64,000 bases of DNA from a bacterium (GTDB lineage: Bacteria > Vulcanimicrobiota > Vulcanimicrobiia > Vulcanimicrobiales > Vulcanimicrobiaceae), in assembly GCA_021832345.1 (NCBI GenBank), contig JAKBKY010000003.1, forward strand, positions 62,001-126,000, written 5' to 3'. A program made the position numbers and the translations under genes. The stretch's first letter is position 1. Every line of letters begins with the position of its first letter. Of the stretch, positions 2,053 through 10,396 are shown one piece after another. The notes beneath the pieces are model-generated. The model saw nothing but the letters and a program-made list of their open reading frames with translations, did not search any database and was not told where the DNA came from.

Positions 2053-2871
2053 TCAACCAGCCTTGGGAGACTCAATCGTGTTGCGGATGAACGTGGCTGC
2101 GAGGTTGAGGGTTTCAGGGAAGCGATCCAGGTGCGGGGCATGGCCGCAGCGACCGGCGAGGAATCGATCTGCATCCAACGCCGCCGCGATCGCTTCGATC
2201 TGAGCGAGCGTTCCGTATTCGTCGTCGACACCCTGAATGAGAAGTGCCGGCGCCGCGATCGTTGCCGACGATGAAAGAATGTTCCATGAGCGAAACGCAG
2301 CGCTTAACCAGACGTCATTCCATCCGTAGAACGTAGCGTCGACGTCGGCATGATACTTGGCCAGACGCGCACGGAGATCGCCGCTCTCGAATGCGACCTT
2401 GGCCGCGGCGATGCTGCGCACCGAGCGCTCTTCCACAAAGACGTGAGGCGCCTCCAGGATCAGCCCCCGTGGTGAAGCGATCTCTCCTGCGTAAAGGAGC
2501 GCGATCGATGCCCCGTCGCTATGACCCACCAGGATTGCATCGCGCGAAGAGATGCCGTACGCCGCCAACAACTCCGGCAACACGACGCACGCTTCGTGGT
2601 GCATATACTCCACGCTGCGCCCTTGGCCTAACACCTCGGAGAAGCCGTTCCCATACCGCGAATAGACGATGCCGCCGCACCCGGTGGACGCACATAGCGC
2701 ACGGGGGAACCTCTTCCACATCGCAATCGACCCCAATCCTTCGTGGAGAAAGATCAAGGTCGGCATCTGCGGCTCTCCGGCCGCGATGCGCTCGACTTCC
2801 AGCATCCGTCCCGCGATCGTAGCCTGCTCCACGCCGGCTGCTACACAACTTGCCGTATCAGACCGAGCCAT
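2053..2871 (-). CDS. Alpha/beta-fold hydrolase
   Basis: A 272-residue protein with the alpha/beta hydrolase layout: oxyanion-hole segment FLHEGLGS (residues 41-48), nucleophile elbow GHSDG with Ser118, an acid-bearing QGVDDEYG segment near 215-222, and a GHAPHLD catalytic His near 245. The HEGLGS form, instead of HGxG, occurs in a subgroup of small-molecule hydrolases sometimes placed near aromatic-acid genes; the substrate cannot be read from sequence. The ATG at 2871 lies 30 bases inside the end of the upstream glycosyltransferase gene. A GTG at codon 14, just after that stop, is an alternative start. It is probably the last gene of the permease-glycosyltransferase-hydrolase operon. Confidence 0.85.
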   Translation of the reverse strand: MARSDTASCVAAGVEQATIAGRMLEVERIAAGEPQMPTLIFLHEGLGSIAMWKRFPRALCASTGCGGIVYSRYGNGFSEVLGQGRSVEYMHHEACVVLPELLAAYGISSRDAILVGHSDGASIALLYAGEIASPRGLILEAPHVFVEERSVRSIAAAKVAFESGDLRARLAKYHADVDATFYGWNDVWLSAAFRSWNILSSSATIAAPALLIQGVDDEYGTLAQIEAIAAALDADRFLAGRCGHAPHLDRFPETLNLAATFIRNTIESPKAG

Positions 2872-3794
2872 GCTTCACGCTCGCGTTCGGGAGCGACCAG
2901 CGGCTGCAAGCTGCGAACCTGTTCGCGCAAGCGCCGGGCAAAAGACGGTTGAGTAGCATATCGCCTCATCAGAGCGGCCAACCCTCGCGTATCTGCGAGT
3001 TGGAAGTAGCCGGCATACTCCTTGCCCAGAAGCCCCACATTGCCGGAGATACGACTAGCCAGGACCGGCGTCCCGCACGCGATGGCCTCGCAGACGACAT
3101 TTGCCCCACCCTCCATTCGCGAAGAGATGACCAACGCGTCGCTAGAGGCTATCCGCTGGAGCGCCTGCTTCGCCGAGAGCTCCCCGAGAAACTCGTAGCG
3201 GGCATCGGCTGCGGCGATCCGCCGGGCTGCCACCGCGTAGCGCTCGTCGAGTACGCCCCCGATCTGCACCACGCGAACGTCGAGATCTCTTGCAATATGC
3301 CGCAAGGCGTAGGCAGCGCGCAACGGGTCCTTTTCTCGGCGCAGATGTCCCACCACGCAGAACGAGACGGCTTCCGGAGCGTGCCGCGGGCGGCGCGCGT
3401 ACGGCGGCGCTGCCGATTGGACGATCGAGACGCACTTGCTGCGCAGTGCCTTAGGGACGAATCTGATCGCATCGGGTTGCAGACTCACAATGGTGCGCGC
3501 GGATGCCAAAGCGCGCAGAGCGAGAGCGCTCTTTGGAAGATCACGATAGAGATCGGTTCCCGAGAGCACGACGACGAGCGGGCGATCGGGATAGGCACGT
3601 GCGTAGCGCAGCGCGCTGCGGCCGCTTCGACGCGCGTGGATCGCGATGAGCGCATCGTAAGGGCGACCGTCGTACTCGGCCGCGATTTGGACCTGCCAGC
3701 CGGCGGACGCAAAGAAATCTGCGTAACGCCGCGCCGTCACCGCGTTGCCTAACCGCGATCGGCGCGGCGCGGGCGAAATGATGCCGACGTTCAA
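2841..3794 (-). CDS. Glycosyltransferase, GT4-like
   Basis: A 317-residue protein with the C-terminal domain of GT-B retaining glycosyltransferases. It shows FCVVGHLRREKDPLRAAYALR (start of the donor-binding domain), SSRMEGGANVVCEAIACGTPV (the E-x7-E type nucleotide-sugar motif) and a final helix. The N-terminal half is short but contains the usual NVGIISPAPRRSRLGNAVTA start. I place the start at a TTG (3794) whose second and third bases overlap the permease stop (TTGA), because the long in-frame extension upstream has a shadow-like composition inside the permease gene. It is likely translationally coupled to the permease. Donor and acceptor are unknown. Confidence 0.8.
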   Translation of the reverse strand: MNVGIISPAPRRSRLGNAVTARRYADFFASAGWQVQIAAEYDGRPYDALIAIHARRSGRSALRYARAYPDRPLVVVLSGTDLYRDLPKSALALRALASARTIVSLQPDAIRFVPKALRSKCVSIVQSAAPPYARRPRHAPEAVSFCVVGHLRREKDPLRAAYALRHIARDLDVRVVQIGGVLDERYAVAARRIAAADARYEFLGELSAKQALQRIASSDALVISSRMEGGANVVCEAIACGTPVLASRISGNVGLLGKEYAGYFQLADTRGLAALMRRYATQPSFARRLREQVRSLQPLVAPEREREAWLGLIRQVV

Positions 3795-4903
3795 CGCAGC
3801 ACCAGAGCGCTGCCGATGAGCGCAGGATCGGCTAAACCGATGAGCCCGGCGACGATCCCCATGCCGACGACAGCCAACATCACGGCGAGCAGGATGCGTC
3901 CAGGGAACGCACTGCGCACGATCCAGAGGGTAGGCAAGCTGATCGCGGGCAATGTGATGAGGAGCGTGAGAGCCGGCCCGGTCGCTAAGCCATACTTGAG
4001 CAGCGTTTGGATGATGGGAACCTCTCCGGCCGTTGGAATCACAAAGAGCGTTCCGATGACGGCGACGCCGATGATCGTAAGCAGATTGCCGCCGCCAAGG
4101 GTGAGGTTCGGGCTGAAGAGCCAGACGCGTGCCGCACCCAGAAGCAACACGACGAGAATATAGCCTGGCAGAATCGTGTACGTCTCCCACCACAGAACGC
4201 GCAGGAACTCGACGACCAGACCGAGCGGTGAACGTTTCGGGTCTTCAACGGCCGCCGCGCTGGGTGTAAAGCTCATCGGTTCGTCGCTCATGCGATTGGC
4301 AATCCAAGCAAACCCAAAGACGAGGATCGCGCCAAGGATGAGTCGGACGACCGCAAACTGCCATGACAGGACGAACCATATGAAGAGCAGCGTCGCGGGA
4401 TTCAAAACAGGATTTGCCAAGAGGAACGCCATCGCGGCGCCGATCGAAGACTGCTGCTTACGGAGGCCCACTGCCAGTGGACCGGTGCAGCAGGTTCACA
4501 TCATGCCGGCAAGCGCCAGCGTCCCCGCAATCGCCGCTGAACCCATCGTCGGCCTGCCGAGCAGACGCCCTACCCAACGCCTCGGCACAAAAACCTGGAT
4601 CACCGCGCCGAGAAGGAGCGCCAGAACGACGGCCTCCCACACCGCACTGTAGTAGGCCATTGCATACTGCCAAGCGGCCTGCCAACCCGCCGTGGCGGGT
4701 GCGGCTGCGGTACCCGAGACGATCGACGGGCCGATCGAGTGGTGCGCCGCCGCCAGGAATACCTTCGCATAGTACGGCGACCACTTCACGATGAAGAACC
4801 CGACGATCGCCAGGGCAACCAGGGCGAAGCCGATAAGCAGGCGCCACAACCGGAGACGCGGTGGCGGGACGGTCTGTTCGCAGGAAGACGACACGCGCTC
4901 CAT
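3791..4903 (-). CDS. COG0701/DUF318-type permease, candidate selenoprotein (UGA at codon 136)
   Basis: Read through a single in-frame TGA (4496-4498), this is one 370-residue membrane protein, the usual size for DUF318/ArsP-YraQ-like permeases. Residues 1-135 hold a first hydrophobic helix (RLLIGFALVALAIVGFFIV) and the FVPRRWVGRLLGRPTMGSAA block. After the TGA come TCCTGPLAVGLRKQQSSIGA, then LLANPVLNPATL and several more helices. In relatives as I remember them, the junction reads Met-Met-Cys-x-Cys-Cys, so the TGA takes the place of the first Cys of a metal- or thiol-reactive motif. A SECIS-like hairpin follows. Family members export organoarsenicals or related thiophilic compounds; the substrate here is unknown. 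The start may be ATG 4903 or, with better spacing from AAAGGA, GTG 4894. If TGA is not recoded, the gene is split and inactive. Confidence 0.75.
4451..4495 (-). promoter_or_regulatory. Candidate bacterial SECIS element downstream of the in-frame UGA
   Basis: Counting from the base after the TGA, bases 13-20 (GGTCCACT) pair perfectly with bases 24-31 (AGTGGGCC, one U-G wobble), closing a GGC loop at bases 21-23. Below it, bases 3-8 (CTGCTG) pair perfectly with bases 40-45 (CAGCAG). Bacterial SECIS elements need an apical loop with G in the first two positions, roughly 16-37 nt after the UGA, on a stable stem. This hairpin meets those rules while encoding the conserved protein motif. Confidence 0.65.
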
Positions 4904-5082
4904 TCCTTTCGACGGTCGAGCACATCGCTCTCGGTGTTTCGCTTTTCTGCACCCGGTTGTGCGCTCCCCGGTGGGTTTGGCAGCCCCGGCGTCCGCCGCT
5001 ACGCCTCGTGGGAACCGGGACGATCTCGTCGCATGGCAGCGCCCGAGGCCTGAGACGAGATCGTGGGTAAACAACGCAGACC

Positions 5083-6078
5083 ATGCACAACCAACGCATC
5101 GTCCTAGCCCGCCGCCCCGTCGGCGAGCCGACCCCGCAGGACTTCCGCCTCGAAACGGTCGAAACGCCGGCACCGGCGCGCGGCGAGGTGCTCGTCCGCA
5201 CACAGTTCCTCTCGCTTGATCCCTACATGCGCGGCCGCATGAACACGACGAAATCCTATGCGCCGCCGGTCGAGCTCGGCGACATCATGGTGGGCGGCAC
5301 CGTGGGCGAGATCGTGGAGTCAAACGACGGTGGTTTTTCGCCGGGCGATATCGTGCTCGCCAACGGCGGATGGCAGCAGTACACGGTGTGCAACGCTCGC
5401 GAACTGCGCAAGCTCGACCCACGGCGCTTCCCGCCGACGTATGCCCTCGGCGTCCTGGGGATGCCCGGCCAGACCGCCTACTGCGCGTTGCTCGATATCG
5501 GAGCGCCCAAGCGCGGCGAAACGCTGGTGGTCTCGGCTGCATCGGGAGCAGTCGGCTCGGTGGCCGGGCAGATCGGGAAGATCTTCGGCTGCCGGGTGAT
5601 CGGCATTGCCGGCACGGACGACAAATGCACGTACGTCGTGCAGGAACTGGGGTTCGATGCGAGCATCAACCGCCGCACGCAAGATCTCGATGAGGCACTC
5701 GCCGACACCTGTCCCGACGGCATCGACATCTACTACGATAACACCGCCGGCGCAATTCTTGAAGCCGTGCTTCGGCGTATCAACCTTGGGGCTCGCATTC
5801 CGCTCGTCGGACTGATCGAACACTATAACGCGACGCAGGCTCCGCATGGCCCCTTCCTTGCCCCGCTCCTGACGCAGCGCGCAAAGATCGAAGGCTTCCT
5901 CGTGACCGACCACGCGGCCCACGTCGCACGGTTCCTGGGCGACATGCACGATTGGCTGGCCAAAGGCCAGGTACGCTACCGCGAAGATATCGTCGATGGG
6001 CTAGAGAACGCCCCGCGCGCATTCATCGGTCTGCTGCGCGGAGAGAACTTCGGCAAGCTCCTGGTCCGCGTCGGCTGA
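5083..6078 (+). CDS. NADP-dependent oxidoreductase, zinc-free MDR family (CurA/LTB4DH-like)
   Basis: A 331-residue medium-chain dehydrogenase/reductase. The N-terminal catalytic domain has the SLDPYMRGRM motif (near residues 44-53) typical of leukotriene B4 12-hydroxydehydrogenase/CurA/YncB-type enone reductases. The Rossmann domain has SAASGAVGSVAGQIGKIFGC (near 150-170). No catalytic or structural zinc Cys cluster is seen. These enzymes reduce alpha,beta-unsaturated ketones or aldehydes with NADPH. It is monocistronic and divergent from the permease operon, with a 179-base gap that presumably holds both promoters. Confidence 0.9.
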   Translation: MHNQRIVLARRPVGEPTPQDFRLETVETPAPARGEVLVRTQFLSLDPYMRGRMNTTKSYAPPVELGDIMVGGTVGEIVESNDGGFSPGDIVLANGGWQQYTVCNARELRKLDPRRFPPTYALGVLGMPGQTAYCALLDIGAPKRGETLVVSAASGAVGSVAGQIGKIFGCRVIGIAGTDDKCTYVVQELGFDASINRRTQDLDEALADTCPDGIDIYYDNTAGAILEAVLRRINLGARIPLVGLIEHYNATQAPHGPFLAPLLTQRAKIEGFLVTDHAAHVARFLGDMHDWLAKGQVRYREDIVDGLENAPRAFIGLLRGENFGKLLVRVG

Positions 6079-6530: not shown

Positions 6531-6629
6531 CAGGATGTACAGAGTTCTACGCGCTGGGCGCTCGGCCTTGGAACCGGCATGGACGCTGCCGACAGTCCTT
6601 TTCCACCCGGCGGTGAATCCTGGTGCGTG

Positions 6630-8696
6630 ATGGGCAAAGACTGGCGGATCGGAATCGATATCGGGGGGACGTTCACCGACCTGCTTGCCGTCGACGAGAC
6701 CGGCGTCGTCATCGCGTGTAAGGTCCCAACGAAGTCGCTTGCTCCCCATGCCGGGGCACTGGCGGCCCTCGACGCCTTCGCCGCCCAGAACGGGACGGGT
6801 TCGGCGATCACCTCGCTTGCGCACGCAACCACGATTGCCACCAATGCGCTCCTCGGGCAGCTCCACCTCGAACTGCCGCGGATCGCACTCCTGACGACCG
6901 AAGGTTTTGCCGACATCATCGAGATCGGCAGACAGAACCGTAGCCGCCTCTACGACCTCTTTGTCACGCGCCCACGCCCACTCGTCGCGCGCGAAAATCG
7001 CATCGGCGTCCGCGAACGCATGGGCTATACCGGGACGGCGCTCATCCCGCTCGACGATGCGGAGATTAGCCGCATCGTCACTCTTCTCTCAGGGCGCAAC
7101 GACATCGATGTCGTTGCCGTCTGCCTGCTCCATGCCTATGCCAATGACACGCACGAACGCCGCCTCGCCGACGCCGTCTCGAAGGCTCTCCCGAATATTC
7201 CAGTCGTTCGCTCGTGCGAAGTCGATCCCCAGTACCGTGAATACGAACGCTTTTCAACGACACTCGTCAATGCGGCGCTACTGCCCATCGTGCGACGGTA
7301 TCTGGACGATCTCATCGCAGGCTTGCGTACTCGCGACATTCACGCGCCGCTCTTTGTCATGCGCAGCAATGGCGGAACCAGCACGGCAGAGCAGGCGGCG
7401 CGCCGGCCTGCCGCCTTGATTGAAAGTGGCCCGGCCAGCGGAACGATTGCCGCCGCCGAGCTGGCACGCTCGCGCGGTATCGAGCGGATCATCGCCTTCG
7501 ACATGGGTGGGACGACCGCGAAAGCGGGAACGGTTATCGACGGGCGCGTTGAGATCGCTACCGAGTTCGAAGCAGCCTCCGCCACCAAGAGCGGACGTGC
7601 CGTCAAAGGAAGCGGTTATCCGGTTCGTTTCCCTTTTGTCGATCTCGCTGAGATCAGTGCTGGAGGCGGCACCATCGCCTGGCTGGATGAGGGCGCTCGT
7701 CTACGCGTCGGTCCCGTCTCGGCCGGATCGGATCCGGGCCCGGCATGCTACGGAACCGCCCTTCACGCCACGGTGACCGATGCCGATGTCGTGCTCGGCC
7801 GGCTCAACCGTACGCATCTTCTCGATGGAGCGTTCCCAATCCAGGCCGAGCGCTCGCGTGCGGCAATCGCAACACTCGCCCAACCGCTTGGTCTGGGCGT
7901 TGAAGCTGCCGCTGCAGGAATCATCGCCGTTATCGACGCGCAGATGGCGCAGATCCTGCGCATCGTGACGGTCGAGCGGGGCCTCGACCCACGCGACTTT
8001 ACGCTGGTCGCCTATGGCGGCAACGGCCCGCTGCACGCCTGCGCTCTGGCGCAGGAGCTAGCCATCTCACGCATCCTCGTCCCGGAACGCCCAGGGCTCT
8101 TCGCCGCAGCCGGGCTGCTGATCGCCGATCTGCGAGCGGATGCAACTCGGTCGATCTTGCGAGCCTGCACCCAGATTCCCGCGATTGAGTTGCGTGCCGT
8201 TTATGACGAGCTTGAAACGCTGGTGCGCTCCGATCTGCAAGCACAAGGTACGCACGACCGCGATATCTCCGTGACGTACTCTTGCGACGCGCGCTATCGC
8301 GGTCAGAGTTTCGAACTGGCTCTCTACGACATGACGACGCCGCACGAGATCGCAGAGGCTTTTCACCGCTCGCATGCAACACGCTATGGATATGCGGTCA
8401 GCGGCGAACCCGTCGAAATCGTGACCGCGCGCGCTACGGCGATCGGCAGAGTCGAGAAATCGCCCGCGCGTTCCAGGCAAGCATTCTCTAAGATGACGAG
8501 GCCGCCGCAGATCCGTAACGTCTGGATCGACGAAGGCTACGTCGATGTGCCGGTCTATCGGCGATCGGAGCTGCCGATCGGAACCCAACTGGATGGTCCC
8601 ACGATCATCGAACAGTACGATGCAAGCATCATGGTGCTTCCAAGATGGCGCGTGGGGATCGACGACGATGCGTGCGTGATCGAGGCCCTTGCGTGA
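6630..8696 (+). CDS. hyuA: Hydantoinase/oxoprolinase family protein, subunit A (HyuA-like)
   Basis: A 688-residue protein starting WRIGIDIGGTFTDL, the ATP-binding phosphate-1 motif of the hydantoinase A/oxoprolinase/acetone carboxylase family. Further family blocks are ATTIATNALL near 85, RSNGGTSTAEQAARRPAALI near 255 and the second ATPase motif AFDMGGTTAKAG near 300. With subunit B it hydrolyses cyclic amides such as hydantoins or 5-oxoproline with ATP. Exact substrate cannot be inferred. I prefer the ATG at 6630, next to the family start; an in-frame ATG at 6579 would add 17 residues. The stop overlaps the hyuB GTG start (GTGA). Confidence 0.9.
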   Translation: MGKDWRIGIDIGGTFTDLLAVDETGVVIACKVPTKSLAPHAGALAALDAFAAQNGTGSAITSLAHATTIATNALLGQLHLELPRIALLTTEGFADIIEIGRQNRSRLYDLFVTRPRPLVARENRIGVRERMGYTGTALIPLDDAEISRIVTLLSGRNDIDVVAVCLLHAYANDTHERRLADAVSKALPNIPVVRSCEVDPQYREYERFSTTLVNAALLPIVRRYLDDLIAGLRTRDIHAPLFVMRSNGGTSTAEQAARRPAALIESGPASGTIAAAELARSRGIERIIAFDMGGTTAKAGTVIDGRVEIATEFEAASATKSGRAVKGSGYPVRFPFVDLAEISAGGGTIAWLDEGARLRVGPVSAGSDPGPACYGTALHATVTDADVVLGRLNRTHLLDGAFPIQAERSRAAIATLAQPLGLGVEAAAAGIIAVIDAQMAQILRIVTVERGLDPRDFTLVAYGGNGPLHACALAQELAISRILVPERPGLFAAAGLLIADLRADATRSILRACTQIPAIELRAVYDELETLVRSDLQAQGTHDRDISVTYSCDARYRGQSFELALYDMTTPHEIAEAFHRSHATRYGYAVSGEPVEIVTARATAIGRVEKSPARSRQAFSKMTRPPQIRNVWIDEGYVDVPVYRRSELPIGTQLDGPTIIEQYDASIMVLPRWRVGIDDDACVIEALA

Positions 8697-10396
8697 ACGT
8701 CGATCCGATCGTCACCGCTATCGTCGAAGGCGCCCTCACCTATGCAAGTCACGAGATGGGGATCGCCGTACGCAACGCCGCGTATTCGCCGAACATCAAA
8801 GAGCGCTTAGACCACTCCTGCGCGCTCTTCGATGCGCGCGGGCGCTTGATCGCACAAGCCGAGCATATTCCGGTTCATCTCGGCTCGTTGCCGTGGGGGG
8901 TCGAGCGTACGCTTGCCTTTATCCAACGGGAGTTCGGCGGTGTCGCTCAAGGCGATATGTGGATGGTCAATGATCCCTACGTCTGCGGAACGCACATAAA
9001 CGACGTCACGCTCGTACGCCCGATCTACTTTGAGGGAGCGCTGGCCGGATATGCCGCCAACAAGGCCCACCATGCCGATGTCGGCGGCAGCGTCCCGGGC
9101 TCCATCTCCATTGATGCGGCGGACCTCTTCGCCGAAGGGCTGGTCATCACGCCGATGCACCTGCTCCGGGGCGATGCGCTGCTCGATGAAGCGGTCGCAC
9201 TGCTCTGCGCCAACTCGCGTGAACCCGCGGCACGCGCCGGCGACCTGCGGGCGCAGGTCGCCGGGAATATCGTTGGGGAACGGCGCCTGCTGGCGCTCTT
9301 TGAACGCTATGGCCGAGCGACGCTCGATGCGACCATCGATCACCTGCTCGATGACGCCGAGCGGCGCATGCGTACGGCCCTGCGCGCCTTCGGCGACGGG
9401 GTCTTTCAGGTCACAAGCGCCCTTGAGGACCCGCACGGCGACCCGAGCCTAACGATCGCTCTGCGACTTGAGCTCGCCGATGGAACGGCGACGCTCGACT
9501 ATACCGGAACGCATGCACAGGTCTCCTATCCGCTCAATGCCGTCTTCGGCGTCACGCTCTCCGGCGTCTACTACGCACTACGAGCGGTCGTCGGCCCGAC
9601 GATTCCAGCCAACGCCGGTACCTTTCGCCCGATCATCGTCAGTGCGCCGGAAGGAACGTTGGTCAATCCGACTCGCCCGGCGCCCGTGGGAGGCGGCAAC
9701 GTCGAGACGAGCACCCGCAATGCGGAACTGGTGCTACGGGCCCTGGCCTGCGCCGCCCCCGACCGCGTACCTGCCGAGAGCGGCGGAACGATGAGCAACG
9801 TCATGCTGGGCGGCGTACGCTCCAACGGCCATACCTGGGCGTTCTACGAAACGATCGGCTGCGGCATGGGGGCACGCCCCGGCCTCGACGGCCTCGACGG
9901 CATCCAATGTCATATGACCAACACCCTGAACACGCCCATTGAGGCGATCGAGCGGCAGTACCCTCTGCGCGTTACGCGCTACGAGTTTGCTGCCGGCACG
10001 GGCGGAGCGGGGCGCTACCGAGGAGGCGACGGGCTGCTGCGAACGCTCGAAAGCACCGAAGGGCAGACTCGAGCAACGCTCCTCGCAGACCGCCACCACT
10101 GCGCGCCGGCCGGCGCGCTCGGTGGCGAACCTGGAAGCTGCGGAGCGCATCGGCTCATCCGCGCCGACGGATCGGCAGAACCGCTCGGCGGCAAAGTCAG
10201 CGTGCTGCTTGCCGCCGGGGAGGCAGTCGAAGTGCAGACCCCGGGTGGCGGCGGCTACGGTGAAGCGGCAGGGTTCGGAGCAGACTTAGCGGGCGGCGGC
10301 GCACAGTCATGCACCGCGCTCATCACCGACGTGGCAACGGCATGCTCGTGCTTGGCGGTATACGCCTGCGTCCACTTCAAGGCACTGACGAGATGA
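8693..10396 (+). CDS. hyuB: Hydantoinase B/oxoprolinase family protein (HyuB-like)
   Basis: A 567-residue protein from the GTG at 8693, which overlaps the hyuA stop (GTGA), so translation is coupled. Hallmarks are SHEMGIAVRNAAYSPNIKER near the start, DMWMVNDPYVCGTHINDVTL, NKAHHADVGGSVPG (metal-binding His and Asp), and the glycine-rich end TPGGGGYG. The protein continues about 45 residues past the usual GGGYG end. That tail runs antisense through the 3' end of the next gene (10255-10396) and is probably not conserved. The longer frame from 8645 lies inside hyuA and is not used. Confidence 0.9.
   Translation: MNVDPIVTAIVEGALTYASHEMGIAVRNAAYSPNIKERLDHSCALFDARGRLIAQAEHIPVHLGSLPWGVERTLAFIQREFGGVAQGDMWMVNDPYVCGTHINDVTLVRPIYFEGALAGYAANKAHHADVGGSVPGSISIDAADLFAEGLVITPMHLLRGDALLDEAVALLCANSREPAARAGDLRAQVAGNIVGERRLLALFERYGRATLDATIDHLLDDAERRMRTALRAFGDGVFQVTSALEDPHGDPSLTIALRLELADGTATLDYTGTHAQVSYPLNAVFGVTLSGVYYALRAVVGPTIPANAGTFRPIIVSAPEGTLVNPTRPAPVGGGNVETSTRNAELVLRALACAAPDRVPAESGGTMSNVMLGGVRSNGHTWAFYETIGCGMGARPGLDGLDGIQCHMTNTLNTPIEAIERQYPLRVTRYEFAAGTGGAGRYRGGDGLLRTLESTEGQTRATLLADRHHCAPAGALGGEPGSCGAHRLIRADGSAEPLGGKVSVLLAAGEAVEVQTPGGGGYGEAAGFGADLAGGGAQSCTALITDVATACSCLAVYACVHFKALTR

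Follow-up and report, generated by a model that had tools for sequence, protein, structure and literature searches.

A predicted selenocysteine-containing permease, candidate selenium transporter, encoded beside senB in a Vulcanimicrobiaceae bacterium

The permease gene and adjoining genes

The analyzed window is a stretch of 64,000 nucleotides from a bacterium of the Vulcanimicrobiaceae (GenBank assembly GCA_021832345.1, contig JAKBKY010000003.1, positions 62,001 to 126,000). The ORF list contains two pieces on the minus strand, 4496-5203 (235 aa) and 3791-4471 (226 aa), which lie in the same frame with a TGA at 4496-4498 between them. The original prediction that both are one frame split by this single codon was borne out by the ORF list and the translation. 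Read through the TGA, the frame at 3791-4903 (minus strand) encodes a permease of the ArsP_1 type with 370 residues; an alternative GTG start is located three codons further in. The read-through sequence around residue 136 is LAGMM-U-TCCTGPLAVGLRKQ. The protein matches the Pfam family ArsP_1 (PF03773) with 101.3 bits (cut-off 32.3), and since the best-matching stretch comprises residues 125 to 355, the homology is continuous across the TGA, as had been proposed.

The motif MMCxCC, which had been expected for this site, proved to be correct: M134, M135, C136, T137, C138 and C139 are invariant in an alignment of 31 sequences, residue 136 being U or C (MM-U/C-T-C-C). The codons of Cys138 and Cys139 are located at 4487-4492 (minus strand). 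A second conserved motif, PTAGEVP (residues 290-296; 4016-4036, minus strand), is near-invariant in the same 31 sequences. More remote PF03773 members in the phylum likewise have Cys at the column of the TGA but carry neither C138 nor C139.

Downstream of the permease, senB, coding for the selenosugar synthase, was identified at 2841-3794 (minus strand; TTG start; TIGR04348 SenB, 346.7 bits, cut-off 300) and confirmed by its translation. The stop codon of the permease and the TTG start of senB overlap by 4 nt, so that both genes probably share a transcript. According to the ORF list, the end of senB is overlapped in turn by an alpha/beta-hydrolase gene (2053-2871, minus strand), whose hydrolase matches are weak and below the cut-offs; it is possibly a third gene of the operon. 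On the plus strand of the window, two genes resembling the alpha and beta subunits of caprolactamase (hydantoinase-type) were observed at 6579-10396, both below the curated cut-offs. A tRNA search of the window found none.

The in-frame TGA and selenocysteine insertion

For the analysis of the TGA column, the aligned codon was determined at 98 homologous loci. It was TGC at 80, TGT at four and TGA at 14 of these and no other codon was found, so that Cys occupies this column at 84 of the 98 loci, in agreement with the expectation for column 136. The 14 TGA loci represent 12 genomes, as two are public copies counted twice (L013/G010 and L014/G032). Within the phylum, the subfamily is present in 23 of 149 genomes, 12 of them with the TGA form. 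In 11 of these 12 genomes the frame downstream of the TGA is intact, with a length of 200 to 235 codons and one frame running to the contig end. The window protein shares 50-59% identity with the other ten intact TGA-form proteins. A sequencing error, which had been considered as an explanation, is excluded because the TGA is found in 12 separate genomes, ten of them with proteins at this identity to the window protein. A reassignment of the TGA codon was ruled out, since TGA also serves as an ordinary stop and terminates 20 of the 44 long ORFs in the window.

Loss of the downstream half in close relatives had been named as an observation that would speak against selenocysteine (Sec). The relatives retain both the TGA and the downstream half, with the exception of one genome of the same family (G020), in which the half was lost through a mobile-element insertion. 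In this genome (L162, about 6912-8865), an insertion of approximately 1.4 kb cuts the Sec-form permease within the hairpin region described below and a C-terminal remnant follows beyond it. The insertion encodes a TnpB-like frame of 437 residues (IS200/IS605 type), named by eye from the sequence.

The genes selA, selB, selC and selD, for which a search had been proposed, are all present in the genome. SelA (C3:740374-741681, 504.7 bits), SelB (C3:741717, 275 bits, cut-off 242), SelD (C11:105264-106187, 358.8 bits) and a tRNA-Sec with the anticodon UCA (C3:753057-753146, 69.5 bits) all scored above the curated cut-offs, and the selD gene carries an in-frame TGA of its own. SelA was found in all 12 TGA genomes and tRNA-Sec in 11 of them; it was undetected in one SelA-positive draft (G006). 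One genome with the Cys form (G124) belongs to a genus in which SelA was found in none of four genomes. Further genomes with the Cys form, including G024, G034 and G047, are SelA-positive, which indicates that loss of the machinery is no requirement for the Cys form. In another genome of the set (G049:C304:1408-2178), a frame containing a single in-frame TGA distantly resembles SelD (AIR synthase-related) and scores below the selD cut-off.

A SECIS-like hairpin was identified at 4465-4483 (minus strand). It begins 12 nt 3′ of the TGA and consists of an 8-bp stem (GGUCCACU / AGUGGGCC) and the loop GGC. An uninterrupted stem of 8 bp or more at the +12 nt position, with G in the first two loop positions, was found in all 11 intact Sec genes but in none of the 85 Cys genes (11 from the same phylum, 74 further ones); the Sec genes are kin to each other, so that these counts are not independent. 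In one relative (G009) the sequence differs (GGGCCGGU-GGUC-AUCGGCCU) and the stem again has 8 bp. The third positions of codons 140 to 149 are more conserved than those elsewhere (0.81 vs 0.53, p=0.0003, permutation). The overall folding energy was no lower than that of synonymous shuffles, and column-wise covariation was not found. Approximately 10% of synonymous shuffles of the Sec genes also yield an 8-bp hairpin and stems of at least 7 bp occur at 13% of other codons of the same genes; the hairpin of one gene alone therefore means little. A putative SECIS element is supported by the form and position of the hairpin, by the conserved third positions and by its absence from the Cys genes.

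Computationally, it is nearly certain that the TGA at 4496-4498 (minus strand) is decoded as selenocysteine, because the column holds only Cys or TGA, the Sec machinery is complete, the hairpin is present and the Cys form occurs in a genus without SelA. This supports the original prediction of a Sec codon where a DUF318/COG0701 permease has a conserved Cys. That the TGA is instead a true stop, leaving a pseudogene or two half-proteins with a restart past it, is very improbable: a GTG is located shortly 3′ of the TGA (at 4471) and the G020 gene is broken just past it by the TnpB-bearing insertion, but the TGA at the exact Cys column of 12 genomes, 11 of which retain a conserved downstream half, is contrary to this explanation, as are the full machinery, the hairpin and the Cys form where SelA is absent, and a restart at 4471 would fall past the invariant C138 and C139.

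At least three changes of the Sec label are required in a maximum likelihood tree built from 41 sequences. Sec and Cys forms are interleaved inside one family of the phylum and the forms in other phyla are all Cys. Sec may have had a single origin followed by loss, or several origins.

Genomic neighborhoods and selenium genes

In the genome of the window, senA (510.4 bits) is located beside the Sec-containing selD on another contig (C11, L144:6265-8452). SenA, SenB and SelD, by which the selenoneine (sen) pathway is recognized, are thus all present, and the separate location of senA and selD means that the sen cluster, which is whole in relatives, is split here. In the relatives of the same phylum, with Sec and Cys forms alike, senB is divergent to senA and the permease and selD adjoin them. 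The arrangements differ in other groups. In the Burkholderiaceae, the permease is mostly found downstream of mnmH (tRNA 2-selenouridine synthase) and selD precedes in about half of the cases. In Hyphomicrobium the order is selA-selB-selD-permease-fdhE, accompanied by additional formate dehydrogenase genes. The permease of Azospirillum is located near selB and selD.

A gene for SelA, SelB, SelD, MnmH, SenA or SenB was found inside the 5-kb flanks at 68 of 80 public loci, while the remaining 12 have no selenium gene nearby; as the 80 loci represent the top hits of a single query and are rich in Burkholderiaceae, the percentages are biased. In 17 genomes the permease has no selD beside it, including the 12 lacking selenium neighbors, and each of these genomes contains selD above the curated cut-off. 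In a survey from 2008, selD was found in 227 of 589 prokaryote genomes (PMC2432076). In this biased sample, the subfamily thus shows the genetic linkage and co-occurrence with selD-dependent pathways by which selenium transporters are judged. Despite the bias, different gene arrangements agree in this respect. The genes sao, ars and mer were not found among the scanned neighbors.

In Clostridium carboxidivorans (L041:100-6014), a Cys-form permease was observed near a TatC-like gene and the A subunit of a reductase of the DMSO/selenate family (TIGR02166, 381 bits, below the cut-off). The SelD of this genome has an in-frame TGA.

Candidate function and relation to known transporters

The AlphaFold2 model of the protein (mean pLDDT 87.9) has a helix at residues 120-133, a break at 134-136 and a helix at 137-149. 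A second break at residues 287-293 holds the beginning of the PTAGEVP motif. From this model we infer that two broken-helix repeats may form the substrate site; its putative ligands are Sec136, Cys138 and Cys139. No solved relatives were found by sequence, and Foldseek against the PDB returned nothing at E≤0.001; its top matches (E 0.24 and above) are sulfate, TRAP and nucleoside carriers, which is only a hint at a carrier of the broken-helix type.

The gene is most likely to encode a selenoprotein membrane permease that moves selenium species for the pathways of selenium use, a candidate function to which we assign a probability of about 0.7. SelB and Sec-tRNA-Sec would insert Sec at residue 136, and Sec136, Cys138 and Cys139 at the break of a predicted membrane helix would bind selenium species in reduced or trivalent form as they are transported. 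A selenium species is suggested as the substrate since selD-dependent selenium metabolism is the common denominator of the genomic contexts, for the Sec forms as well as the Cys forms. Selenium in a common form, inorganic or thiol-bound, would be more likely than selenoneine itself, because selD linkage is paired with any of three uses (tRNA selenouridine, selenoneine and selenoproteins). For the direction we lean slightly towards export of excess selenium, based on the precedent of the family and on the consideration that an importer containing Sec could not be made under selenium scarcity; the latter argument is weak, because SelD itself is a selenoprotein here. The linkage as such specifies neither substrate nor direction, and the co-location could stem from shared regulation. 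Characterized relatives in the PF03773 family move arsenicals or Cu/Zn and not selenium, which counts against the selenium reading. The best reading of the gene is a transporter of selenium species that turned into a selenoprotein in one lineage. We also favor, with some reserve, the wider proposal that the subfamily is a dedicated selenium transporter for the synthesis of selenoproteins, tRNA selenouridine and selenoneine across several phyla, with the Sec of one lineage handling selenium and its own synthesis reporting the selenium supply.

A different explanation accepts the insertion of Sec but has the permease export thiophilic metals or metalloids (organoarsenicals, mercury, copper), with co-regulation as the only reason for the selenium linkage. 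This is unlikely. Membership in PF03773 favors such an export, as does the weak similarity to SaoE and to the SO_0444 Cu/Zn exporter, for which a Sec form has been cataloged (PMC13188914). The protein falls more than 240 bits short of both cut-offs, however, the scanned neighbors include no metal or metalloid genes of the ars, mer or sao type, and the Cys forms, whose own synthesis is free of selenium, are equally linked to selD, mnmH, senA and senB. An exporter of thiophilic compounds, as originally predicted, was therefore not borne out: the neighbors are genes of selenium use, which argues for a selenium compound as the substrate. Membership in an organometal (Sao) system, which had been considered, was not supported either.

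It is also improbable that the permease, with Sec inserted, carries an organic selenium product (a selenosugar, selenoneine or a breakdown product) and not inorganic selenium. The overlap with senB in the window and the sen clusters throughout the phylum fit this explanation, but the loci of Burkholderiaceae, Hyphomicrobium and Azospirillum contain mnmH or selA/selB/selD instead and no senA or senB was found in their flanks.

Compared to known systems, the selenium permease proposed here shares single traits with several of them. The Sec form of the SO_0444 Cu/Zn efflux transporter (NF033936) is listed with the motif UxC in a 2026 review, which also lists Sec forms of other transporters (PMC13188914). 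SO_0444 is a related permease (56.4 bits), its Sec form is already in the GenBank annotation, and in both Sec probably takes the place of the leading Cys in a motif of the C-x-C type. Membership was rejected, as the cut-off of 300 bits is far off, and the protein described here differs by its motif U-T-C-C and its neighbors selD, senA, senB or mnmH. The best NCBIfam match is SaoE (NF040736; 67.8 bits), a permease acting beside selenoproteins; this membership was rejected as well, with the cut-off at 325 bits and no sao genes adjoining. The organoarsenical exporter ArsP belongs to the common Pfam family PF03773. The subfamily differs by its linkage to selenium genes and by the additional invariant C138 and C139, which distant PF03773 proteins in the phylum lack, and ars genes are absent from its scanned neighborhoods.

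SenB is a characterized Se-glycosyltransferase of selenoneine synthesis (PMC10891094, PMC10702425). As in the selenoneine pathway with its genes senA-senB-selD(senC), the genome has SenB beside the permease and SenA beside SelD. In contrast to that pathway, the genes are found at two loci and the permease is an added member, for which no description as a part of the pathway was found. A description of the selD/sen-linked permease subfamily was likewise not found in the papers searched.

The 2026 review notes that a specific, high-affinity system for selenium transport has yet to be identified in prokaryotes (PMC13188914). The subfamily is a concrete candidate for this missing bacterial selenium transporter. 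In addition, it provides an example of a membrane transporter whose Sec is located at a predicted helix break in the membrane and in which Sec and Cys have interchanged within one bacterial family. Since Cys forms occur in named and sequenced species of the Burkholderiaceae, deletion in combination with selenium assays should be feasible.

Genomic context led to the prediction that YedE transports selenium (PMC5322559), and the 2026 review lists a Sec form for the wider YeeE/YedE family (PMC13188914). Both YedE and the permease are membrane proteins for which selenium transport is predicted via the linkage to selD, but they belong to unrelated Pfam families (PF04143 for YedE, PF03773 for the permease).
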